Shown here piece after piece: positions 4,615 through 60,384 of a stretch of DNA of 64,000 nt. Position 1 is the first letter of the stretch, and each line of letters opens with the position of its first letter. Both the position numbers and the translations under genes were made by a program. The stretch comes from a virus: positions 21,902 through 85,901 of IMG/VR virus record IMGVR_UViG_3300030098_004191; one strand, 5' to 3'. The notes below the pieces were generated by a model. That model was given only the letters and a program-made list of their open reading frames with translations. It had not been told where the DNA came from and did not search any database.

Positions 4615-6536
4615 CCTCTTATTAAATCTCCGTTTGTATAACTTGAAGTAACTTTATAACCAACACCCGATATTTGTTCACCAGAAGTGATGGTGTCTTT
4701 AACCATATTTATCGTACTATTAGAAATGTCAAAAACAAGGTATAAATCCTTAAGTCCAAGAACATCATTAGACTCTGGAACTGCTTGAATTTCTATAATA
4801 TTATTAATTCTGCTCGTTTCTGTTATATTAATAGTTGTTAAAATAACTTCTCCTTTAAAATAATCTACAGTTCCAGCTGATTTAACAACTACTACTTTAT
4901 CACCAGTTTGTAAATCTTCTCTAACAATAGCAATATCACCCATATTACTACCATCTAAATTCCCATCTAGATCTTTTTTAGGTATATCTGTTAGATAAAG
5001 AAGATTGGAGTTTCCAGCAACTTTAAAACCAGTACTCTTAATATTTAATCCTTTTGGATTAATATGGAATTTATTACCGAAACAGAGTTCATATTGGGCA
5101 AATGTATTTAAAACTGCCTTTAAATTTCTTCTAATTGTAACTCTAGTAATGTTAGAAGTAATTCCTTTATCAATACCATCAATAATATTCAATACTTTAC
5201 TATATTTAAATCTACCACCAAACTTATTAATATCATTTGAATCAGCATATGTAGTCAATCCATCCATAACTCTAGTCTTAAGATCACTTGCTTTCTCAAC
5301 TGCAGCAGTATTGTAGTAAACAAAACTATCAACCTCAACATAAAGTACCTTAAGATCTAATATCTTCTGATTAATACCAGCAAGTGAATATGACTTCAAT
5401 TTAGTAAGGATTTGTTCCTTATCAAAATCAGATACTGTATCACCATTTTTTGGCTTAATTGTAAGTAGAACTGTACCAAATTGTGGTGGATCTAACTCCT
5501 CACCACCCACAACAGAGACTGATTCAGTATTTGGATAGATTGTTTGTATTATTGATTCATAATCTCTTGCTGTAACTGCTCTATATTGTGCAGAATACAG
5601 TCTAGGAGCGAAGTATTTAACAGAATCGATTGGTTCAATATCACCACCATTAATAGCACCTTGTACGGTTGTTATGGCAGGAGTAGAGTTTATTGTAAGT
5701 AAATTACCTAAAGAATCACTTATACTACCTGTATAAGAGAAATTAGCAGGTCCATTACCCGATTTTCCATTTGTAAGGATATAATCTACAGTAATTTCAT
5801 TACCATCTTCTAATTTTTTACCAAAAATACCATCACCAAAGAGTAATTCATACTTCTCATCTTGTATCTCTTGTAACAAATATGTCTCAGATGTGTTAGT
5901 AATACCTATAATATTGTCAATTTTCTTATATTCTGGTCCAATTCCAACATCTCCTACACCTTTCACGTAAACTACGATAGTAGCAGTGTCAATAAATGGA
6001 TTATCTAGTACAAATCTCTGGTCTAATGACCCATCTACTGTGAATTGATTCCTTACATATGTACCTTCATAGACTGTAATTGGATCAGTACCAGTACCAA
6101 AGGTGGCAATTCCAGTTACACTATCAACATTTGATGTAATACTTTCAGGTATAGAGAATGTATATGTAGTATCTTCTTGAGCACCAACACACACCAGACC
6201 TGCCTGTAAGGTCGCTGTAGGAGTAGCAGTGCTTACACCAACCTCAAACGCTATATTTGCTGTAGAAGCAGTCCTAGAACGTGGTACATACCCTATATTT
6301 CTTGCTAATGATACTACATTTTCACGTAATACTGCTGAATCCAAAAAGGATTCATTAACAGTCATATTAGAGTTAAATGCAGTAATGTAAGTATTATATG
6401 CCAGAGTATCAATTATAACCGACATATTCGACCCTTCATAGTCAAAATCAGTAAAATCTGAGTTTGCACGAAGATAATCTTTTATCGATTCTTTAATTTG
6501 ATCAAAATCGAGGTTTGTGTACTTGGTAAAAGGCAT
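4611..6536 (-). CDS. gp6: baseplate wedge protein gp6 (baseplate J family)
   Basis: A 641-residue protein, close to T4 gp6 (660). In T4, gp6 dimers form the continuous ring of the baseplate wedge and hold the fibre and sheath-initiating parts together. The N-terminus (MPFTKYTNLDFDQIKESIKD, then a DYEGSNMSVIIDTLAYNT segment) is typical of marine-phage gp6. The middle has the RDYESIIQTIYPN phrase seen in baseplate J-like proteins. It lies one base after gp25 and overlaps the next gene by ATGA. Recognition is by family pattern and by gene order gp25-gp6-large structural protein. Confidence 0.93.
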   Translation of the reverse strand: MPFTKYTNLDFDQIKESIKDYLRANSDFTDFDYEGSNMSVIIDTLAYNTYITAFNSNMTVNESFLDSAVLRENVVSLARNIGYVPRSRTASTANIAFEVGVSTATPTATLQAGLVCVGAQEDTTYTFSIPESITSNVDSVTGIATFGTGTDPITVYEGTYVRNQFTVDGSLDQRFVLDNPFIDTATIVVYVKGVGDVGIGPEYKKIDNIIGITNTSETYLLQEIQDEKYELLFGDGIFGKKLEDGNEITVDYILTNGKSGNGPANFSYTGSISDSLGNLLTINSTPAITTVQGAINGGDIEPIDSVKYFAPRLYSAQYRAVTARDYESIIQTIYPNTESVSVVGGEELDPPQFGTVLLTIKPKNGDTVSDFDKEQILTKLKSYSLAGINQKILDLKVLYVEVDSFVYYNTAAVEKASDLKTRVMDGLTTYADSNDINKFGGRFKYSKVLNIIDGIDKGITSNITRVTIRRNLKAVLNTFAQYELCFGNKFHINPKGLNIKSTGFKVAGNSNLLYLTDIPKKDLDGNLDGSNMGDIAIVREDLQTGDKVVVVKSAGTVDYFKGEVILTTINITETSRINNIIEIQAVPESNDVLGLKDLYLVFDISNSTINMVKDTITSGEQISGVGYKVTSSYTNGDLIRG

Positions 6537-13142: not shown

Positions 13143-13919
13143 TTACATTACCAACTTACGTCTTTCTATGTCATTCTCATTTAACAGTGCTGATTCACCC
13201 CTCCAAATCTCTATAATATGGGCAGGATTATCACTCTCATTTATACCTTTGTGCCATGTATTTACAGGGATGAATATACCTTTATGTTCCTTTAGTTTGT
13301 GCTTAATTATATTTGGCTGATTAATACCATTATCCATTATTACATAACATTCTCCTTTTACCACATTCCATGTTTCAGTCCTGTGTTCATGTTTTTGCAT
13401 TGATAGAGAACTATGAGGATTAATCACTAATTCTTTTACCTTATAACCTTCTCCTTCATACAGTACTCTATAGTATCCCCATGTTCTTATTGTCTTTGGA
13501 TTACTATACTCATTCAATAGAATACTACTACTATTCTTCTTATCATTTCCTCCTATTCCCCACTTGAATACTACTCTTGCATCACACCAGTACTTATCAT
13601 GTTCTGGTACATTATCCTTTTCTCTATCTCCACCATTACAGAATATAATAGGACTGTGTTGTATTAACTGTTCTATTGCATCATTACTACTGTCATCATC
13701 ATCATTAAAGGAAATTACTTCATCGACACATGACAATGATAGAAGGATTTCTTTCCTTTCATCATAGTCCATGAAGTATCTTCCCTTCTTACGGATTAAC
13801 CATTCATCGGAATTTAATCCTACTACTAAGTGTGTACCATATGCTCTGGCATGTTTAAACAGTGCAATGTGACCACTGTGTATTGGATCAAATCCACCTG
13901 TGACTAATACTTTACTCAT
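13143..13919 (-). CDS. bifunctional cytidylyltransferase-like / type II mannose-6-phosphate isomerase-like (cupin) fusion
   Basis: With ATG at 13919 (a GTG two codons earlier is possible) the protein has 258 residues. Residues 3-75 form a nucleotidyltransferase domain: VTGGFDPIHSGH at 6-17 holds the HxGH motif, and KKGRYFMDYDERKEILLSL resembles RfaE/HldE and glycerol-3-phosphate cytidylyltransferases. From about residue 145 it switches to a cupin: RTWGYYRVL, KVKELVINP and QKHEHRTETWNVVKGE match type II phosphomannose isomerase domains. This pairing suggests sugar-nucleotide synthesis or editing. Last gene of the 18-gene operon; 8-base overlap with the upstream stop. Confidence 0.8.
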   Translation of the reverse strand: MSKVLVTGGFDPIHSGHIALFKHARAYGTHLVVGLNSDEWLIRKKGRYFMDYDERKEILLSLSCVDEVISFNDDDDSSNDAIEQLIQHSPIIFCNGGDREKDNVPEHDKYWCDARVVFKWGIGGNDKKNSSSILLNEYSNPKTIRTWGYYRVLYEGEGYKVKELVINPHSSLSMQKHEHRTETWNVVKGECYVIMDNGINQPNIIKHKLKEHKGIFIPVNTWHKGINESDNPAHIIEIWRGESALLNENDIERRKLVM

Positions 13920-14313
13920 TTCCACTTATATCATCATATTGTGACCAGTGTTGTACCTCTCTGGTACTTCTTCTTTTTACAAATTTTAATTCGTGCCAAT
14001 ACGTGTCATAGCACAACAGTAGAGTATGAATGTATTTGTGCGGATCATTTTTAGTGTGCTCACAATATGGTTTCGGTCTTATACCAGTCTCTATGGTAAT
14101 GTACCTTGCAACAGGATTCCACCCTTGTTTGATTCTGAGATCATTATCTACTGGGTCTCCTTTGAAATACACCCATCCTTCATCAGTACTTCCATTCTCA
14201 TGTTTCCAGATGACATAATCATCTACCTCTGGCTCATAGGGGGTACTTTCCATCTTCATCATGGACTGCACGTAGTCTATCGGTTGGAAGACCTTCTGCC
14301 ATGTATGCTTCAA
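13912..14313 (-). CDS. conserved hypothetical protein
   Basis: Up to 133 residues. A start at 14262 or 14253 (MKMESTPYEPEVDDYVIW) would reduce an 80-base overlap with the previous gene to about 20-29 bases and is likely. DYVIWKHENGSTDEGWVYFK looks like an SH3-like beta barrel; then ITIETGIRPKPYCEHT and HTLLLCYDTYWHELKFV. The pattern is familiar from cyanophage hypothetical proteins but function is unknown. Overlaps the fusion enzyme downstream. Confidence 0.65.
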   Translation of the reverse strand: MKHTWQKVFQPIDYVQSMMKMESTPYEPEVDDYVIWKHENGSTDEGWVYFKGDPVDNDLRIKQGWNPVARYITIETGIRPKPYCEHTKNDPHKYIHTLLLCYDTYWHELKFVKRRSTREVQHWSQYDDISGNE

Positions 14314-21861: not shown

Positions 21862-22033
21862 ACTTAATTGCTTGATCTATAATAACTTGTATCTCTTTAC
21901 TTGTCAAGTCATTTAAGAATTTCCAATTAGGATCTTGTCTGTCCCATTCAAGAGAAAATGAACCATCTTCATTCTGATTCACTTTTAGACTGTCGTTCAT
22001 CATCTTTGATTTGTTTTCTAACCTGTTTAGCAT
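21839..22033 (-). CDS. hypothetical protein (likely start at 22000)
   Basis: Up to 64 residues; ATG at 22000 (MNDSLKVNQNEDGSFSLEW) gives 53 and fits a cyanophage small-protein pattern 'NEDGSFxLEWDxxDPNWxxLNDLT'. Overlaps neighbours on both sides. Function unknown. Confidence 0.6.
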   Translation of the reverse strand: MLNRLENKSKMMNDSLKVNQNEDGSFSLEWDRQDPNWKFLNDLTSKEIQVIIDQAIKYDNDSRI

Positions 22034-22441: not shown

Positions 22442-22598
22442 TTCTCTTCTGAGTAGTTACATCATACTCTATCACAATCTTTTTAGATTGTCTACCTGTA
22501 CTATCGTAGGTTGTAAAACTTTGCAGTGTACCACCTAACTCATTTACTCCCATGTGAGTAAATGCTGCTAGTATTTCCTTTTCATTTCTTTTGGTCAT
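22431..22598 (-). CDS. hypothetical protein, 55 aa
   Basis: MTKRNEKEILAAFTHMGVNE then LGGTLQSFTTYDSTGRQSKK, ending TTQKRNVN. ATGA overlap with the heme oxygenase stop, so it is translationally coupled to it. A helix followed by a beta hairpin; no function recognised. Confidence 0.6.
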   Translation of the reverse strand: MTKRNEKEILAAFTHMGVNELGGTLQSFTTYDSTGRQSKKIVIEYDVTTQKRNVN

Positions 22599-23272
22599 GT
22601 TAATTTACCTTTAATGAATCCTATGATAATCTGGATGAATGACTTTAAAGAATTACCTTCTAATTGATCGAACATGTGCATGTTTAATCTAAATGCCCAG
22701 TTTGCCTCAACAATTATTGCATTTTGTTGTGCTTCTGTCAATGGTAGTTCATCAAGTATGCTACGATACTTAGTCTTGTACTCCTTGGCATTATCTATCT
22801 TATCAAACTCATAGAAGTATAATCCTTCACCATTTAAGTTCATTGCCTTTTCAGCAATATTCTTAAGTATCTGTCCACCTGATAGATCACCCAAGTATCT
22901 GGTATAATGATGACCAACTAATAGTTCGGGTTCAGTTTTTGCAACCTCATGTATTCTATCAACATATCTCTGACATGCTTCAGTTGGTTGAATCAATGAC
23001 CTCCACATTGGACCATAATAATATCTCAAATCCCGTTCAAGGCTATTAACTCTCTCTAACTCTGGTAGATATAATTTACCAATAACAGGATCATTCTTAA
23101 ATATCCTGAAGTCTTCCTCTATTGCAGTATAAACAAAGTATAGGTCAGCAACCAATACTTTATAACTGTCCTTACTAACAACACCACGTAAGAATGATTT
23201 TACAAATGCTGTATTCTCTGCTGCTGAATGTGATTTTTTAGTTCCTTCTTTAATCTCTTTTGAAAATGTCAT
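22595..23272 (-). CDS. ho1: heme oxygenase (biliverdin-forming)
   Basis: With ATG at 23272 (ATGA overlap with the upstream stop) the protein has 225 residues, the usual length. It opens heme with reductant and oxygen to biliverdin, iron and CO. KKSHSAAEN at 12-20 holds the proximal heme ligand H15. HHYTRYLGDLSGGQ at 120-133 is the distal-helix signature with the conserved glycines. In marine cyanophages it feeds phycobilin synthesis (PebS, PcyA), which would keep host light harvesting active. No bilin reductase gene is seen in this window. Confidence 0.95.
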   Translation of the reverse strand: MTFSKEIKEGTKKSHSAAENTAFVKSFLRGVVSKDSYKVLVADLYFVYTAIEEDFRIFKNDPVIGKLYLPELERVNSLERDLRYYYGPMWRSLIQPTEACQRYVDRIHEVAKTEPELLVGHHYTRYLGDLSGGQILKNIAEKAMNLNGEGLYFYEFDKIDNAKEYKTKYRSILDELPLTEAQQNAIIVEANWAFRLNMHMFDQLEGNSLKSFIQIIIGFIKGKLT

Positions 23273-23661
23273 TTCTTTTTCCTGACTGGTACTTCTAGTG
23301 TCCATGATGATGATTCCAATTTAACCATATCAAAGTTCTTTTTAAACTCTTTCTCTCTTGCCTTCCTCTCTTTCTCCATTGTTAGTTCAATGGTTTCAAT
23401 ACTTCTCTCACCATAATGAGATTTCTGTGGATGTTGCAAACCCATGTAATCATAGATCGCAGTATCTACCATAAAGTAAAGTGTATCCCAAGTCAAAGTA
23501 TCTCTCAAGTTAGATGCAATTCTATCTACATCATTTTCATCAAGATACTCACCAGTTGCTACTGCCTTTGAGTAATCTTCATATTGAGTCAAGAGTTTTG
23601 CTCTAATCTCTACCAACTTATTAAGGTTGATAGTAATTTTCACATCATCGTCTATAGCCAT
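23269..23661 (-). CDS. conserved hypothetical protein, 130 aa
   Basis: MAIDDDVKITINLNKLVEIR, then AKLLTQYEDYSKAVATGEYL and DTAIYDYMGLQHPQKSHYG, ending EVPVRKKK. Helical with a strongly basic tail (MEKERKAREKEFKKN). First gene of the heme oxygenase operon, ATGA-coupled to it. No function recognised. Confidence 0.6.
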   Translation of the reverse strand: MAIDDDVKITINLNKLVEIRAKLLTQYEDYSKAVATGEYLDENDVDRIASNLRDTLTWDTLYFMVDTAIYDYMGLQHPQKSHYGERSIETIELTMEKERKAREKEFKKNFDMVKLESSSWTLEVPVRKKK

Positions 23662-34623: not shown

Positions 34624-37600
34624 AGGATAGTGCATCGACCTTTGCAGACAATTCCTTAATTGCTTCAATTAGCAATGGAACAAGTCTCTTATAGTCAACG
34701 GCTTTAAGTTCATTACCTAGACTAGGATCATAACCTTCTGCTTCACTCAAATCTCTTGTTTGAGTAACACCAGGTAATCCAAGTTTTTCAACTTCTTGTG
34801 CAATAACACCAGTATCAGTTTGGCCACGCAAATGTTCATAGTTTTTATCATTCCAAGTAAATGTATTACCTGAAATTGATTTAACCTTATCAAGAGCATT
34901 AGGAATAACTGTGATATTATCTTTTAATCTTTCATCAGAACTGGAGAAAGCAGTAATGTCACCACCAACGTATAGATCATTATTAATACCAACACCACCA
35001 GATACTACAAGAGAACCTGTAGTCTTACTGCTAGAGTTTGTTGTTGCTTTTGCTCTCAACTGTCCATTAGATTCAAGTATATCATCAACTGTTGTAGTTC
35101 CACCAGCAGAATCAATCGTTAAATTACCAGTAGAAGTATCAAGTTCATTGGCTCCAGTAAGACCAACTTGGATATTACCAAATGTAGCACCATTACCACC
35201 ACCAATTTGATTGAATGTGGCAATACCAGCAACATTCAAATCTCCACCAATGTTGACATTCTTAGCAACACCGAGTCCACCTTTAAGTACAAGGCAACCT
35301 TCATTAATATTATTGGACTGCTCAGTACCAGCAATCTTCAAGGTACTATTCATAACAGTAGTACCATTCAACCTAACTTCTGAGTTGAATGTAACAGGTC
35401 CATCAAACTGAGATAGAATCTTATCAGATGTACCACCCTCAACAATTAATCTGTCTTTAATTACAACTTCATCAAAAATAACACTAAGTTTTGATGGGTC
35501 TTGTCCAGTGACAGTAGGAAGAGGAGCATCATATGTTTGTTCTGTACCTGTTGCAGAACTTACTCTCTTATTACCAATAAAGAAATCACCTCTGTTATTC
35601 ATACCAGTATAGACAACAGCACCACAAGATCTTTCTTGTGCTTGAACTAAGAACTCTTCTCTTTCAGATAGAGTTGTAGTCTGAATCTGTGGTAAACCAG
35701 TTGAATAGTTTCCTGGTCCATAACCAAGGTATTCAAATGTATGACCAGAAGCACGAATAATAGATGGTCGTCTAAATTCAACTGCTAATGGATCAATCTT
35801 CTTAATCTTTGTTTTATCAACATGATTAGTTCTAGTAGTTCCTAAGTAACCACGAATTACTGTAAGTTCATTATTACCAGAACCACTAAGATTATTACTA
35901 ACTACCCTTACTATTTCATTGTCAATCTGTAATAAAGATCCAAGTGAGAACTTAGATCTTAAATTAATCTTATCAGCAGCAGTAGGAATATCATTAATAA
36001 CAATCTTATTACCACTTCCTAATGCTGCACCAAGATCATATGTAGAACCTTGATAGAAAGAGAATCCTCTTGCACCTACACTCTCATTACCTGCATCAGA
36101 AATTGCATCAGCAGCAGACATTCCATGAGGTATATAACGAGCAGGAGTTATATTTGTATCAGTTTTAACAGAGAAATTAGAGGCACTTACTTTCTCTTTT
36201 ACATAAAAATCTCCAAGACTAACATTTGAAGAGTTAAGTAATCTTACTTTACTACCAGATACTAATCCATGAGCTGCGACACCACCACTACCCCAAAATG
36301 TAGATATTCCAGTTGTTGCATCAAACTGAGTAACACCTATTGATCCTGCAGGTCCAGTATTGGCAGCATATTGGCCAACAATAATAACAGGATCAGCAGC
36401 AGCATGAGCAATAGCAACTTTATTCTTAGCAGGAACGTCTGTAATTCTATATTGTCCACTAGCAGTAGTACCAATACCAGTAATTTCTAGACCATCACCA
36501 ACATTAGATATAATTTGTTCACCTGAAATAGTATATCTTGCAGCACCATTACCACCACCAACTTTAGTTTGATCAAAATATAATGGAGTTGTAACACTAG
36601 CATTATAACCAGAACCTGGGTCAATAATTTCTACATTAGAAATACCACCACCAGCTACAACTACTCTTGCAGTTGAACCATTCCATGCGTTTGTTGCTGG
36701 ATTTGCTCCACCACTTAATAACTTAACATCCTGATATGTTCCATTATCATAATTTGCACCAGCAGTAACTGTTCCAGTAGCAATACCATTAAAGTTATGA
36801 TTCTCAGTAAATGTAATAGTACTAATACCAGCAGTATTATCTCTACCAACTGCACTAATCTTCTTACCTACAGCAAAATCAGTTAAGAATTGATCTACAC
36901 ATTCTCTAGTAATACTCTTCTTAAGGTCATTAGTTACAACTTCACCAAGAGGATCTCTTTTTGCATAAGAAACTGCTGCATTTGGGTTGTCGTCTGGATT
37001 ATCCTTATCTTGTTGTGGATAAAGATCAGTAACATTCTGACCATACTTAAGTTCAGTAAATTCTTCACTAACACCTTGATCTGCTTTTAATACAAATAGA
37101 TGATATACACCATCCTGAACATTATATTCATATTCACTTATAACTTCAGTTCTATAAACATAGTAATTGGATTGAATATCATTCCTTTCAAATCTTGGTA
37201 ATGCAAGATCTCTAGTAGTTACATCACTGGTAAATGTTCCAGGATCATGTGTAACTCCTACTATATCAGTTGTTGAATAAGTAAATGTCTTATTATCAGC
37301 AGTTGTAGTAACTTTAAATGTACTGTTATATCCACTATTACCAGCACCAATAGTATTATTTGTACTCTTTACATTTACTATTTTAACTAAATCATTAGCC
37401 TTTAAATTATGTGGTAATGCAGTTCGTACAGTAACTACATTAGAAGATTCTGTACATGTACTAATAAACCTATGATTTCTCTTATAGGCATAATCAGTTG
37501 CATCAATAGTATTATCTGTAAAGTCAGTAGTTGCTTTAGCACCAGTAAAGCTTGAATCCTGAATTACAAAACCTTCATTTGGATTTCTTGCATTGAATGA

Positions 37601-40012
37601 TTCTTTAGGAACAACAACACGCATCTTATAGATCTTATCATCTAATGATCTACCATCCTCTTTTCTTGTTAAGTAAGATACTTCTGTTTTAACATCAACA
37701 GCAGGTAATGTATTAATTTTAGTATAAAGATTACTATTAGTACCTACATGAACAAACCAATTATTATTTGCGGAGTCCCACTGAATTGGTGATCCAAGAT
37801 CACCTGATTCTTTATCATGTACTCTACTTGTAATATAAAGATCCGAACCACCATATACTGTAAGGTCTTTTGAATTATCAGCATTAGTTTTAGATGATGC
37901 TAATTTAATACCAGTACCATTTCCTAATCTAATAGCATAATATGTTGTTTCATCTTCTAAATTTTCTGGAAGATCACCAATATCACTATAAATTCTTACA
38001 CTTTCACCTGTTTGTATAGTGTGTCCACCAACAGCACCAATAGTAAACTCATTATTTGTTGGACCAGATGTAACTTTATATGATTTTTGAGAAGTATCAG
38101 TACCTATGGCAACTGTTGCTGAATTCATATCAACATCAAGCATATGCACAGGTGCTTGATAAACAGTTCCATCTATACTTACTGAAACTACTTCATCATT
38201 CTTTGCACCAATTCTATATCCTCTTAAAGTAGCTGGTGGTGCATCATCTTTATCATCGTATCCATAGAGATAAAGATGACTTGAAATACCAACACCAGTA
38301 GATCTCGTCTTAGCTACGTCAATGGCAATCCAATCAACAGCTTGGTCTGTTTTGGTAATTGCTTTTGGTGTAATAATATTGGTTACAAATGCATTATCAT
38401 CCTTAGTAAATGCTTTATTCTTGAATCCTTCAGCAGAAAGTGAGATCTGACCAAAGTTGGAGTTAGAGTTTGTAATTGAAGCATCAGATCCAGATTGTAT
38501 ATCAAAATGTTTGTTATAACCAATAGCAAACACAGAAACTATCTGAAGAACAGCATCATTTGTAATCTTAATATGACTTGTTTCCCATCCACTTCTATAA
38601 ATCGCATTAGGATCTGAATGATAAACAGTATCTGGGTTTAATGAAGATGCTCCTTGAGATAATGCAGATCCTTTTACAACTTGAATTGCAATATTATCAT
38701 ATTGTCTAGAAGATTTATTATACTTAACAAATGCTCTATCATCTTTTTGTAGTGAGACACCAGTAAACTGTGCAACAACCATTGATCTGAAACCAGATGC
38801 CTTATGGCCATCTGCTTTCATACCATTCATACCCCATACAGAACGTAAAGAGCAGTTGAATATATATGGAGATGCACCAGATACAGTATCAGTTTCAATT
38901 TCTACTGAAGCAGCAGATACGGTAGGTTGAGGTGGTAAATTATCTCGTACAAATGGTAATAAGTAAGTAAACTCAGTAGCACTAACAACACTTTGTACTA
39001 TAGTAGAAATATTATAATCTAAAGTATCAACACCCTTAACCTTAATAGGTGTTCCTGCATTTAAATTATGATCTGCTGTTGCAGTAACAGTTACAACTGT
39101 ACCAGGTGTAAATCCATCTCCAGATTTAATATTAGAAATTTGAATAGGATCTGTGGCAAATGCACCAACAATTTCCCACTCAGGTCTTTGCTTGGAAAAT
39201 CCACCAGAAGCACTAGGGAATTTCTGATCAATATCCCTTGTAGATGCAAGGTTAAATGCGTTTGATAATTTACTATAATATTGATCTAAATCACTTATAT
39301 CGAATCTCTGAGGAATAGTAACACCATCAGCATATTCAAAACAAGTTAATTTATGGTGAGAGAAAGTAGGTTTGGCTTGGTTATTAGAAGAGAAATCAGA
39401 TTTATCTGTATATACTAGACTATCTTCACTACCATCAAAGAATGTAAACTGGAAGAAATAACAAGAACCAGTAACTCTGAAAAGAGCAGTTGGTGGAGCT
39501 GCACTATCTGAAGCAGTTGGATTTGGTACATATTTTGGTCTAATCTTAGTTTTTCTAAGATCCATACCAACAATAGAAGTACCACGAGGAATTATTACAC
39601 CACCATGAATACTATTAAACTTATAAAGATCATTATTTTCTTGATTTAAATCAAAATTAGAATCTAATGTTAATGAAAGAATATTTTGTGCGTTCTGAGT
39701 ATCATCTCCTGCTGGTGTTACTGCTTTTGCTACACCACCTACATCTCTGACTCCATAACCAGGTCTATTATCAACAAAATGTTCTCCAGGATATACAAGT
39801 ATTGTTGTCTTCTCTACTATATCATTATCATTACCCTTTAAATATGAAAATCTTGCCGATTCAAGCAATGCTCTCTGAATCGTCTTAAACGGTTGTGTTA
39901 ATGAATTACCCTGATTCGTGATCGCATCAGTTGCATCAAGATCACTCGGATTGACGTAAAGAATACGTCCTTCCGTATTCTTCACAAAATTCTCTAATTT
40001 ATTAAGAGGCAT
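34622..40012 (-). CDS. 1796-aa tail fibre with C-terminal S74 chaperone domain
   Basis: MPLNKLENFVKNTEGRILYV, then DATDAITNQGNSLTQPFKTI, the opening of a right-handed beta-helix (pectate-lyase-like). Long beta-rich repeats follow. A HTFEYLGYGPGNY ... GDFFIGNKRV segment, shared with the 939-aa fibre, lies before residue 1550. 'GTTVMNSTLKIAG' units and then SDERLKDN at 1692-1699 follow. The last ~106 residues are a peptidase S74 intramolecular chaperone with the S-x4-K dyad (S1692, K1697). It trimerises the fibre and cleaves itself off. Late box upstream at 40046. Confidence 0.88.
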   Translation of the reverse strand: MPLNKLENFVKNTEGRILYVNPSDLDATDAITNQGNSLTQPFKTIQRALLESARFSYLKGNDNDIVEKTTILVYPGEHFVDNRPGYGVRDVGGVAKAVTPAGDDTQNAQNILSLTLDSNFDLNQENNDLYKFNSIHGGVIIPRGTSIVGMDLRKTKIRPKYVPNPTASDSAAPPTALFRVTGSCYFFQFTFFDGSEDSLVYTDKSDFSSNNQAKPTFSHHKLTCFEYADGVTIPQRFDISDLDQYYSKLSNAFNLASTRDIDQKFPSASGGFSKQRPEWEIVGAFATDPIQISNIKSGDGFTPGTVVTVTATADHNLNAGTPIKVKGVDTLDYNISTIVQSVVSATEFTYLLPFVRDNLPPQPTVSAASVEIETDTVSGASPYIFNCSLRSVWGMNGMKADGHKASGFRSMVVAQFTGVSLQKDDRAFVKYNKSSRQYDNIAIQVVKGSALSQGASSLNPDTVYHSDPNAIYRSGWETSHIKITNDAVLQIVSVFAIGYNKHFDIQSGSDASITNSNSNFGQISLSAEGFKNKAFTKDDNAFVTNIITPKAITKTDQAVDWIAIDVAKTRSTGVGISSHLYLYGYDDKDDAPPATLRGYRIGAKNDEVVSVSIDGTVYQAPVHMLDVDMNSATVAIGTDTSQKSYKVTSGPTNNEFTIGAVGGHTIQTGESVRIYSDIGDLPENLEDETTYYAIRLGNGTGIKLASSKTNADNSKDLTVYGGSDLYITSRVHDKESGDLGSPIQWDSANNNWFVHVGTNSNLYTKINTLPAVDVKTEVSYLTRKEDGRSLDDKIYKMRVVVPKESFNARNPNEGFVIQDSSFTGAKATTDFTDNTIDATDYAYKRNHRFISTCTESSNVVTVRTALPHNLKANDLVKIVNVKSTNNTIGAGNSGYNSTFKVTTTADNKTFTYSTTDIVGVTHDPGTFTSDVTTRDLALPRFERNDIQSNYYVYRTEVISEYEYNVQDGVYHLFVLKADQGVSEEFTELKYGQNVTDLYPQQDKDNPDDNPNAAVSYAKRDPLGEVVTNDLKKSITRECVDQFLTDFAVGKKISAVGRDNTAGISTITFTENHNFNGIATGTVTAGANYDNGTYQDVKLLSGGANPATNAWNGSTARVVVAGGGISNVEIIDPGSGYNASVTTPLYFDQTKVGGGNGAARYTISGEQIISNVGDGLEITGIGTTASGQYRITDVPAKNKVAIAHAAADPVIIVGQYAANTGPAGSIGVTQFDATTGISTFWGSGGVAAHGLVSGSKVRLLNSSNVSLGDFYVKEKVSASNFSVKTDTNITPARYIPHGMSAADAISDAGNESVGARGFSFYQGSTYDLGAALGSGNKIVINDIPTAADKINLRSKFSLGSLLQIDNEIVRVVSNNLSGSGNNELTVIRGYLGTTRTNHVDKTKIKKIDPLAVEFRRPSIIRASGHTFEYLGYGPGNYSTGLPQIQTTTLSEREEFLVQAQERSCGAVVYTGMNNRGDFFIGNKRVSSATGTEQTYDAPLPTVTGQDPSKLSVIFDEVVIKDRLIVEGGTSDKILSQFDGPVTFNSEVRLNGTTVMNSTLKIAGTEQSNNINEGCLVLKGGLGVAKNVNIGGDLNVAGIATFNQIGGGNGATFGNIQVGLTGANELDTSTGNLTIDSAGGTTTVDDILESNGQLRAKATTNSSSKTTGSLVVSGGVGINNDLYVGGDITAFSSSDERLKDNITVIPNALDKVKSISGNTFTWNDKNYEHLRGQTDTGVIAQEVEKLGLPGVTQTRDLSEAEGYDPSLGNELKAVDYKRLVPLLIEAIKELSAKVDALS

Positions 40013-57827: not shown

Positions 57828-58547
57828 CTAGTTGAAAAAACTTGCCAGTCCCTCCAATACTACTTCAGATTCAACTTCTGTCTTAGGATTTTTAACCTTA
57901 ATTTTATGAGAAAGTTTAGGCATAGTATTAAAGAAATTCTCAATATCTTTAAATTGTTTTGTATTCAACTGCTCAACAAAATCCTCTAATTCTTTTGAAG
58001 TAGATTCAGAAGCTTTCCAACTTTCTTCTGCATTGTAAATAATATCAATACATGATGTAATCATGTGCATAGTTGTATCAACATCATTTGTTGAGTCTGC
58101 ATCAAAATTAGATGATATAAATTCAGTAAGAGATGGATACTTTAATTTTAATGAAATATCATCATCAAGTTTCACAATATCTGTGTGCTCTTTATTCTTT
58201 TGAACTTTAATCGCATCAATATCAATAGGCATTTGAACGGTTGTTTCACCATCATCAGGACAAATAACATTGACTTCAACCTGTTCTCCAACAGATTTAG
58301 CACGAACATTCAAGAACAAATATTCAATATCAAATGTAGCCATTTTCTCAACCTTAGTACCCTTAGTAAGGATACAAGAGTTTAAAACATCAATAACTGC
58401 AGTCGTAATTTGTTTTAAATCTTCAGATTCTAGTGCAATTATTAAAAGTTTCTCTTCTCTGACTAAAAAAGGGCGATATTTAACTTTCCTATTAGAGGAA
58501 GGTAATACCAATTCATAAGTTGGGGTATTAATTTTTGGTAAAGGCAT
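57828..58547 (-). CDS. gp26: baseplate hub protein gp26
   Basis: A 239-residue protein. MPLPKINTPTYELVLPSSNR then KVKYRPFLVREEKLLIIALE is the conserved N-terminus of the T4_baseplate family (gp26, 208 aa in T4). Then DVLNSCILTKGTKVEKMATFD and FLNVRAKSVGEQVEVNVICP follow. It helps assemble the hub. The next gene is two bases away. Confidence 0.88.
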   Translation of the reverse strand: MPLPKINTPTYELVLPSSNRKVKYRPFLVREEKLLIIALESEDLKQITTAVIDVLNSCILTKGTKVEKMATFDIEYLFLNVRAKSVGEQVEVNVICPDDGETTVQMPIDIDAIKVQKNKEHTDIVKLDDDISLKLKYPSLTEFISSNFDADSTNDVDTTMHMITSCIDIIYNAEESWKASESTSKELEDFVEQLNTKQFKDIENFFNTMPKLSHKIKVKNPKTEVESEVVLEGLASFFN

Positions 58548-58571
58548 AATGTTTATAGCACTTCAGTATTA

Positions 58572-59717
58572 TTATATATACGTGATATTTGAATTCATTC
58601 CATCATACCAGTTTTTCAGTGAATATTCACTCCAAACTCCATAATGTCCCGAATCACCTTCACCATATTTGTTTGGTCTATTCTTAGATATTTCTAAATA
58701 TTGATCAAATTCTTTAGATTCAAATGGTAATGTCTTAGCATAATCCCAGAATGGAGTATCATATTTTGATCCATATTGATAATGCCATAAAACAAAATGT
58801 TCTACCTCAGACATAAATTGTTTAAATCTAGCATTAATGTCTTTTGTATTTAAAACTGGTGCATTAGGAGATGGCCAGATTTTTATACAAATAAAATTAT
58901 ATACAAGTCTAGCAAACTCTATGTAAGATTGAATTGCAGTTGATTCTAAAGGTTCCAAGAAAAATAATCTATTTCCATTTAAAAATATCCTATCATCAAT
59001 TATTGGATTCTTTGAGACATAATTTTTAAACTTAAGGTTATTTGTTATTTCAACATCAAACATCTCTAAAAAATTCTTTTCAGCATCTTCTTTAGAAGTT
59101 ATAGTGTCATTATACAAATATCCTACGGATCCACTACGAGATGGAGAATTTATATTAGTAGGTATTACAAATGTCCATCCATCAGGAGTTGCAACATGTC
59201 TACTCCATAGATTCTCTGTAGTATTCCAATTTGGTTTACCTAAAATTACAGCATTTAATGGATTAACTAATTCATCATAATCAGAAAGATCATCAGGTTT
59301 TCCCCTACAATCAAAAACAAAGTCAGAGTCAACATCTTTAGGATCTACCTTCCCTTCAACTACTTTAAAATTTCCAGAACCTAATACTGCCTCTTGCATT
59401 TCCCAAGGACAAAGATGCATTGCTAATGTATTAGGAGGAAATGGATGAAAGAATTTATCATTCTTCTTACCCCAACCTTCATAAGATATTCCAGTCTTAG
59501 GAGTTGCATGAATGTTATTATTATACCAATCAAATCCAATACCAGAAGCTAATAAACTAGGAGGTTCTAATAAAGTTGCTTGTCCAACACTTTCTGGTTT
59601 AATCTCTGGATCATGTATTAATTCTACCTCTACATCAGGATTATTAAAATATACAGAATTAAACAGTGCAGTAAAACATCCAGCACTACCTGCACCAACA
59701 ACAGTAATTTTTTTCAT
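58572..59717 (-). CDS. prnA: flavin-dependent tryptophan halogenase-like protein
   Basis: A 381-residue protein (PrnA about 540). VVGAGSAGC at 6-14 is the FAD-binding GxGxxG; TPKTGISYEGW at 72-82 places K74 where the catalytic lysine (K79 in PrnA) belongs. WTFVIP at 181-186 resembles the WxWxIP signature, with one W replaced by F. EPLEST at 255-260 holds E258-S259 like E346-S347 of PrnA. FADH2-dependent halogenases chlorinate or brominate indoles; here the substrate is unknown. It lies between gp26 and the tube protein, both structural. Confidence 0.82.
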   Translation of the reverse strand: MKKITVVGAGSAGCFTALFNSVYFNNPDVEVELIHDPEIKPESVGQATLLEPPSLLASGIGFDWYNNNIHATPKTGISYEGWGKKNDKFFHPFPPNTLAMHLCPWEMQEAVLGSGNFKVVEGKVDPKDVDSDFVFDCRGKPDDLSDYDELVNPLNAVILGKPNWNTTENLWSRHVATPDGWTFVIPTNINSPSRSGSVGYLYNDTITSKEDAEKNFLEMFDVEITNNLKFKNYVSKNPIIDDRIFLNGNRLFFLEPLESTAIQSYIEFARLVYNFICIKIWPSPNAPVLNTKDINARFKQFMSEVEHFVLWHYQYGSKYDTPFWDYAKTLPFESKEFDQYLEISKNRPNKYGEGDSGHYGVWSEYSLKNWYDGMNSNITYI

Positions 59718-59736
59718 AATTAAGTCTCAGTAATTT

Positions 59737-60348
59737 TTAGAATACAACGTAACGGTCAAAGTTAAAGCTTACAGTAACTCTTAGTACATCAGCTTCACCA
59801 TATGAAACTTGTACTGGTGTTATTGCTTTAGGGAAGGCATTTATAAATTTATATCTTAATTCACGTCTATGGTTTTTTTCAAATTTGGTAATTTGCATAT
59901 TACTGACTTTATAATTATCAGGATATTGCATTCTTCTATAATAACCTTTATCCTGCTGCCTCATTCTTCTAGTTGCTCCACTACCAATATACTCCATCCA
60001 ACCTTCAAAAATCTTTAATATTGTATAGTCTTGGTCAACATAAAAAGTAAAATCAGTATCAGTATATAATCTAGTATGAGCATATTCCTGTGGAATTCCC
60101 ATGAAATTATCCTTTACTTCTGCTGTTGCAAGATTGGAAGTTGGTAATGATGCATCACTACAAAGAATTCCTGCTCTTCTTGAAAGAAACTCTCTAAGAT
60201 TTTTTAATCTAGAATATCTCTTTAAATATGTCTCAACAGCAGGAGTCAATGAAGAAAAACTAACCACATAATGATTAGTTTGTGCCAAACCCCCTATAAG
60301 GGATTTAACCTCTGGCATAGTAATTTTTCTTGCTAATGAATCTGGCAC
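59737..60348 (-). CDS. gp19-type tail tube protein
   Basis: A 203-residue protein with a GTG start at 60348 (MPDSLARKITMPEVKSLIGG). Middle: LCSDASLPTSNLATAEVKD and GYYRRMQYPDNYKVSNMQIT. C-terminal FINAFPKAITPVQVSYGEAD then VLRVTVSFNFDRYVVF match the T4 gp19/gp54/gp48 tube fold, where the end strand packs the ring. It is larger than T4 gp19 (163), so it could be the tube protein or a tube-initiator paralogue. Late box upstream at 60377. Confidence 0.72.
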   Translation of the reverse strand: MPDSLARKITMPEVKSLIGGLAQTNHYVVSFSSLTPAVETYLKRYSRLKNLREFLSRRAGILCSDASLPTSNLATAEVKDNFMGIPQEYAHTRLYTDTDFTFYVDQDYTILKIFEGWMEYIGSGATRRMRQQDKGYYRRMQYPDNYKVSNMQITKFEKNHRRELRYKFINAFPKAITPVQVSYGEADVLRVTVSFNFDRYVVF

Positions 60349-60349
60349 T

Positions 60350-60384
60350 CTAAATATCTAATATTATTATCGTAGTTATTTATG
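60350..60384. promoter_or_regulatory. divergent late promoter region
   Basis: Plus-strand CTAAATA at 60350-60356, 25 bases before gp4 ATG (60382). Minus-strand CATAAATA at 60384-60377, 28 bases before the tube gene GTG. Two opposite late boxes in 35 bases. Confidence 0.7.

Follow-up and report, generated by a model that had tools for sequence, protein, structure and literature searches.

Flavin-dependent halogenases (FDHs) chlorinate, brominate or iodinate ring-shaped molecules, and a catalytic lysine is their hallmark. Such genes are already known in cyanophages: cyanophage prnA genes had been described by 2010 (PMC2984593), and Sullivan et al. 2010 tabulated genes of 1104, 1116 and 1167 nt beside others of 1437-1593 nt (PMC3037559). 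According to a review, 20 of 153 cyanophages have such genes (PMC10452541), and in a jumbo-phage survey the S-SSM6a halogenase falls in a predicted secondary-metabolite cluster (PMC7824862). VirX1 of cyanophage Syn10 has been shown experimentally to be a halogenase, active in the order I > Br > Cl on diverse aromatics (PMC8407142). In our incomplete coverage of the literature we found no paper that separates short from long phage halogenases, nor, with few subscription journals covered, one that describes WxFxIP halogenases, and no activity is reported for any short form in the literature searched. The compact architecture that we discuss here is apparently an uncharacterised variant of a known gene type.

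The gene is in a window of 64,000 nucleotides (the whole stretch analysed, positions 21,902 to 85,901 of IMG/VR record IMGVR_UViG_3300030098_004191), and is the single halogenase detected on the 85.9-kb contig. It is an intact ORF of 381 aa with an ATG start, and its features are as follows, in window coordinates.

58572..59717 (-), compact flavin-dependent halogenase ORF, stop codon included (ORF call, PF04820, phrog_2928, AlphaFold2)
59679..59696 (-), GxGxxG dinucleotide-binding motif GAGSAG, residues 8-13 (G8 and G10 invariant, G13 in 96/97 short forms)
59496..59498 (-), catalytic lysine K74, equivalent to PrnA Lys79 (it aligns to the lysine of halogenase PDB chains)
59439..59447 (-), HPF, residues 91-93, equivalent to the 'Trp2' motif of PMC8269204 (H in 83/97, F in 89/97)
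59415..59438 (-), main deletion site, residues 94-101 in place of about 65 residues of long forms, the Trp-site lid region (from segment lengths)
59301..59324 (-), DxxxDCxG, residues 132-139, second part of the Rossmann core of the FAD domain (D132, C137 and G139 invariant in 97 short forms)
59160..59180 (-), GWTFVIP, residues 180-186, WxWxIP with F as second W (from the comparison of short and long forms)
58941..58946 (-), E258-S259, equivalent to PrnA Glu346-Ser347, in FLEPLESTA (E in 92/97, S in 72/97 short forms)
58614..58643 (-), C-terminal YG-x-W-x-x-YS-x-K element, residues 359-368 (Y359 in 82/97, W362 in 81/97, S366 in 79/97)

The ORF matches Pfam PF04820 with E=1.1e-30 (107.4 bits, for a curated cut-off of 21) and phrog_2928 'tryptophan halogenase' with E=2.3e-71, and by these profiles it is a member of the flavin-dependent tryptophan-halogenase family. 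The PF04820 alignment is split in two, the N-terminal part covering profile positions 1-98 and residues 128-364 covering 201-432, and it follows from the jump that about 100 mid-profile positions are missing from the ORF. An earlier note on this DNA, made from sequence alone, had called the gene tryptophan halogenase-like; the family assignment stands, but free tryptophan as substrate is doubtful with the lid region deleted. Its statements on the protein itself are borne out, as the catalytic lysine and the Glu-Ser pair are kept (K74, E258-S259), the length is about 160 residues below that of PrnA (157 fewer than the 538 aa of the PDB chain), and one W of WxWxIP is F. WxWxIP has served as a family criterion, and the ORF has WxFxIP; however the motif or its variants are absent from some FDHs (PMC8407142), so that it is not strictly defining and the superfamily membership of the ORF stands.

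The AlphaFold2 model, made with 54 relatives, has a pLDDT of 92.4 and a pTM of 0.90, and the predicted fold is a box-shaped Rossmann FAD domain with a pyramidal subdomain, the pyramid being trimmed. In a Foldseek search of the PDB all 50 matches listed are halogenases, with PyrH-FAD first (E=6.6e-22) and TM-scores by query length of 0.68-0.77 for PyrH, MibH, AbeH, PrnA, RebH and VirX1. A profile of 54 short forms matches FDH structures with E=6e-33 to 1e-30. The earlier note had named a structural model that lacks the FAD site as a result that would count against it, but GxGxxG and DxxxDCxG are kept and the model resembles FAD-bound halogenases; with these motifs conserved, loss of the predicted FAD site did not occur.

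With regard to the characterised enzymes, VirX1 (PDB 6QGM) shares with the ORF its superfamily, phage origin and catalytic Lys and Glu (profile E=3.3e-27, TM-score 0.72 by query), but has 531 aa. PyrH and AbeH (Trp-5) and PrnA and RebH (Trp-7) have the same box-shaped FAD domain, Lys/Glu pair and fold, but they have about 130-170 aa more and are 16-20% identical to the ORF when aligned by structure, and their Trp lids and Trp3/Trp4 motifs are missing or not recognisable in the ORF. MibH (PDB 5UAO, 541 aa), a lanthipeptide Trp halogenase, has the highest TM-score by query among the matches listed, at 0.77, although a difference of 0.01-0.02 is not meaningful and there is no sequence sign of special kinship. 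Closer to the ORF are the short forms in phrog_2928, from S-ShM2, S-SSM5, S-SSM7, Sf-CH8 and S-SCSM1, which resemble it in compact length (359-390 aa) and signature; identity is 42-49% for S-ShM2 and Sf-CH8 and about 30% for S-SSM5 and S-SSM7. They differ in site, the gene being between the tube gene and gp26 in the window, at gp23/gp3 in Sf-CH8, at talC in S-ShM2 and beside gp33 in S-SSM5.

In scans of viral contigs the short form had 316 relatives and a long form (S-B64) had 560, and residues and segments were compared across 97 distinct short sequences and 71 long ones. The complete ORFs among the sequences fetched have two length classes, at about 340-415 aa and 460-550 aa, and none falls between 415 and 455 aa apart from one at a truncated contig end. 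Lys74 is invariant in both groups (97/97 short, 71/71 long), with short forms going down to about 25% identity. W181 is also invariant in short forms, and the second W of WxWxIP is F in 96 of the 97 and W in all 71 long forms. The spacing from HPF to MH is 8 residues in short forms and 65 in long forms (about 57 aa fewer), the beta-meander region of the FAD domain has 20-21 residues versus 32, the stretch after DCxG 44 versus 55, and the C-terminus about 60 versus 111 (about 50 aa fewer). These deletions are shared and discrete, and are not decay. In nine pairs dN/dS is 0.11-0.23, with 0.23 against the 80%-identical relatives at the same site, and the short form evolves under purifying selection with dN/dS of about 0.2. 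A pseudogene or an assembly truncation is ruled out by the open frame, this dN/dS and the same deletions in 97 sequences.

On a tree of 58 rows the split into short and long forms needs one change, on a branch with SH-aLRT 92, and the long phage forms, which differ from the ORF in having the 65-residue segment and the beta-meander as well as WxWxIP and Fx.Px.Sx.G, are on the opposite side of it. A protein of Campylobacter phage CP21 stands at the boundary; the tree was made by a quick method and the long branches of CP21, S-SSM7 and Sf-CH11 meet, which leaves some doubt over exactly where the compact clade ends. A short gene occurs together with one long gene in S-SSM7 and with two in P-TIM40, and with both in single phages neither form is simply an allele of the other. 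Recent decay of the long form is likewise unsupported, given this coexistence and the bimodal lengths. In P-TIM40 (KP211958.1) the regions 36774-39507 and 183737-184705 hold two tandem long halogenase genes and one short one, three in total. By its sequences the compact form is a coherent, widespread and conserved group in marine viral contigs.

In tryptophan halogenases four motifs, Trp1-Trp4, are distinguished (PMC8269204), and the Trp-site lid is at residues 148-167 in AbeH/PyrH (Gly148-Gln160 for the AbeH lid) and in a C-terminal insertion in BorH/RebH (PMC11840605). Trp1 and Trp2 are tentatively recognisable in the ORF, as ATLLEP (ATIPSL/ATFSTV elsewhere) and HPFPP (HPFER/HLFGN), and Trp3 (QxxQ, the PyrH-clade lid) is deleted, there being 8 residues for the 65 of long forms. 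The conserved C-terminal HYGVWSEYSLKNW element possibly stands in for the Trp4 segment (YYGNFEAEFRNFW or YYHGFETYS), the alignments, among them that to Trp4 of RebH/Thal, being weak and in disagreement. Because the PyrH/AbeH lid is in the deleted stretch and the C-terminus, which in BorH/RebH has the lid, is much shortened, free L-Trp is doubtful as substrate of the compact form. A true tryptophan halogenase, working on free host L-Trp (or tryptamine or indole) to give an antimicrobial precursor or to disturb host metabolism, would fit the retained Trp1 (AT) and Trp2 (HPF) segments and the PyrH (Trp-5) structures being best in both phmmer and Foldseek, and the C-terminal element could replace Trp4. 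However with the PyrH/AbeH lid region deleted, with Trp4 not alignable with confidence, and with even the long relative VirX1 having no Trp4 motif and being listed as not applicable for Trp (PMC8269204), we regard this as unlikely.

There is also evidence against halogenase activity. In the Fx.Px.Sx.G tunnel motif, for which the G is reported in active FDHs (PMC8407142), the ORF keeps F253, P256 and S259 and has A261 at the G position, which is S in 76 and A in 16 of the 97 short forms and G in 68 of the 71 long forms. Ser259 is Ala in 25/97 short forms, and the catalytic Glu is Gln in four. A flavoenzyme that has moved past halogenation, be it one that uses this fold for monooxygenation or another oxidation, or one that binds FAD without catalysis, would account for the A or S at the G position and for the four Gln, and the W to F change is in a motif thought to prevent monooxygenation. 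But Lys74 is present in every short form and the Glu in most, and purifying selection is strong, which makes such a protein improbable.

Matches to the region come from P-SSM2 and from the single-cell virus AG-345-L05, and the gene order gp32-gp53-gp48-x-gp4, then divergent tube-fold gene-gp26-gp51, is common to the window and P-SSM2. The window is part of a P-SSM2-like T4-like cyanophage (cyanomyovirus). Around the halogenase it has the following features.

59737..60348 (-), gene of a tail-tube-fold protein, upstream neighbour, probably first in the transcript (PF23849 E=2.3e-20, phrog_45 E=1.2e-37)
57828..58547 (-), downstream neighbour gp26, baseplate hub subunit (PF12322 E=2.1e-71, phrog_150)
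60377..60384 (-), CATAAATA, late-promoter-like box 29 bp before the tube gene (consensus match only)

The tube-fold protein is 37% identical to PSSM2_013. In P-SSM2 there is a 54-bp gap between PSSM2_013 and gp26, with no halogenase and with a late-type box, CTATAAATA, and the window halogenase occupies the place of this gap; the same insertion is found in two environmental contigs (L006 and L007), with proteins about 80% identical. The position between gp26 and the tube gene, as given in the earlier note, is confirmed by the PHROG and Pfam matches of both neighbours, and the two further points made there also hold, that the halogenase has no late box of its own and is probably co-transcribed with a tail gene. 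NATAAATA is absent from the minus strand within 59718-60100, directly upstream of the halogenase, and the nearest box is the CATAAATA before the tube gene. Taken alone this box is weak evidence, because TATAAATA is rarer in the window (1-64000) than in dinucleotide shuffles, with 4 observed for 12.4 expected. Nevertheless neither the halogenase nor gp26 has a NATAAATA box nearby in the window and the tube gene has CATAAATA, and thus co-transcription of the halogenase with the tube gene is likely on these motifs. Where P-SSM2 (6430-6500) has CTATAAATA directly before gp26, the window (58548-58600) is without NATAAATA, and with no such box left there gp26 may rely on read-through across the halogenase.

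Elsewhere the contig has a heme oxygenase gene at 22595-23305 (-) (PF01126 E=7.9e-79), a bilin-pathway gene known from other cyanophages; a psbA-type gene was not found on the contig. A single ORF at 13143-13925 (-) joins a cytidylyltransferase-like domain to a mannose-6-phosphate-isomerase-type cupin (PF01467 + PF01050).

The neighbourhoods of the clade bear on the suggestion in the earlier note that a virion-protein tryptophan might be the substrate. We looked at 111 short-form loci, most of them from the best 80 of the 316 relatives and so biased towards the closest kin of the window. The gene is next to gp23/gp3/UvsY in 43, nrdB + phrog_447 in 21, phrog_6501 in 10, talC + phrog_692 in 9, exonuclease/phoH in 5 and tube/gp26 in 4, and is elsewhere in 19. 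After dereplication at 92% identity to 61 loci the respective figures are 22, 14, 4, 3, 1 and 2, with 15 elsewhere. It is co-oriented with 105 of 119 adjacent genes and changes site at least 7 times on the tree. In the case of long forms the tested head and tail genes are absent within 3 kb of all 82 loci, the flanks being short, and UvsW is near 5 of the 82. A conserved link to structural genes is rejected as a general rule by the varied short-form neighbourhoods; structural neighbours are common but no rule, so that placement in the tail module singles out no virion substrate.

Halogenation of protein-bound Trp or Tyr, for example in a virion protein during late maturation, would agree with the tail operon here and with gp23/gp3 as the commonest dereplicated context, and an open pocket and the presence of the lanthipeptide halogenase MibH among the best structural matches would also suit it. 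Against it, the clade is also beside nrdB, phoH/td/exonuclease, talC and others, its changes of site mean that structural co-expression is not conserved, and close relatives form virions without the short form: the 149-kb AG-345-L05 record has no PF04820 match, and P-SSM2 has a long form only, elsewhere in its genome. The proposal thus gains no special support, and we think a virion substrate very unlikely.

At some loci a gene of 2OG-Fe(II) oxygenase type (phrog_61) is beside or near the short halogenase (L004 7357-7998; also L046, L074, L076 and L079), and it is possible that it is a partner in a modification pathway. A few short-form matches come from cellular assemblies. An M48 peptidase and an ABC permease are encoded near the copy in a Poribacteria MAG, and a GH5 enzyme near that in a Polyangiaceae MAG; given these contexts the short form may not be exclusively viral. 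In contrast the match in Nonlabens xiamenensis 1Q3 (L102, NZ_RMVE01000006.1, 188,235 bp) is 98.6% identical to P-TIM40 (188,632 bp) over 84% of 12.9 kb, and is probably contamination of the reference genome with this cyanophage.

The reading that we favour, with moderate confidence and on sequence and model, is that the ORF encodes an active compact FDH with an open pocket, which would act on an aromatic host molecule other than free L-Trp and be expressed late by read-through. What the analysis shows is the family, the predicted fold, the conserved residues, the pattern of deletions, purifying selection and the location, whereas activity, use of FAD, halide, substrate and timing are inferred. 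With the lid segment, part of the beta-meander and much of the C-terminal pyramid lost an open pocket is to be expected, and the natural substrate is more likely to be some other aromatic molecule of the host, larger than or different from free L-tryptophan; in its most likely role the enzyme would modify an aromatic host compound of small or medium size. By analogy with known FDHs, hypohalous acid would form at the Rossmann FAD site from O2, halide and FADH2, the last supplied by a host reductase; it would then move to K74, where, with E258, an electron-rich aromatic ring would be halogenated. The gene would be an auxiliary metabolic gene in a tail operon, with late expression by read-through from the tube-gene promoter. 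FDHs usually borrow a flavin reductase. A search for a dedicated one (PF01613) was negative on the 85.9-kb contig, which is incomplete.

Cyanophage halogenase genes have been on record, with no known substrate, for over 15 years. As the compact clade is distinct from the VirX1-like long forms, and both are found in single phages, a shared function should not be assumed. The compact forms are small enough for direct expression and assay, and their lost lids make them candidates for broad-scope biocatalysts. A wider suggestion, which we put forward as a long shot, is that they are a lid-less halogenase class acting late on macromolecular or pigment-type substrates, such as virion or photosynthetic proteins, bilins or chlorophyll. 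If this were true, marine cyanophages would be halogenating components of the cell or of the virion on an ocean scale.
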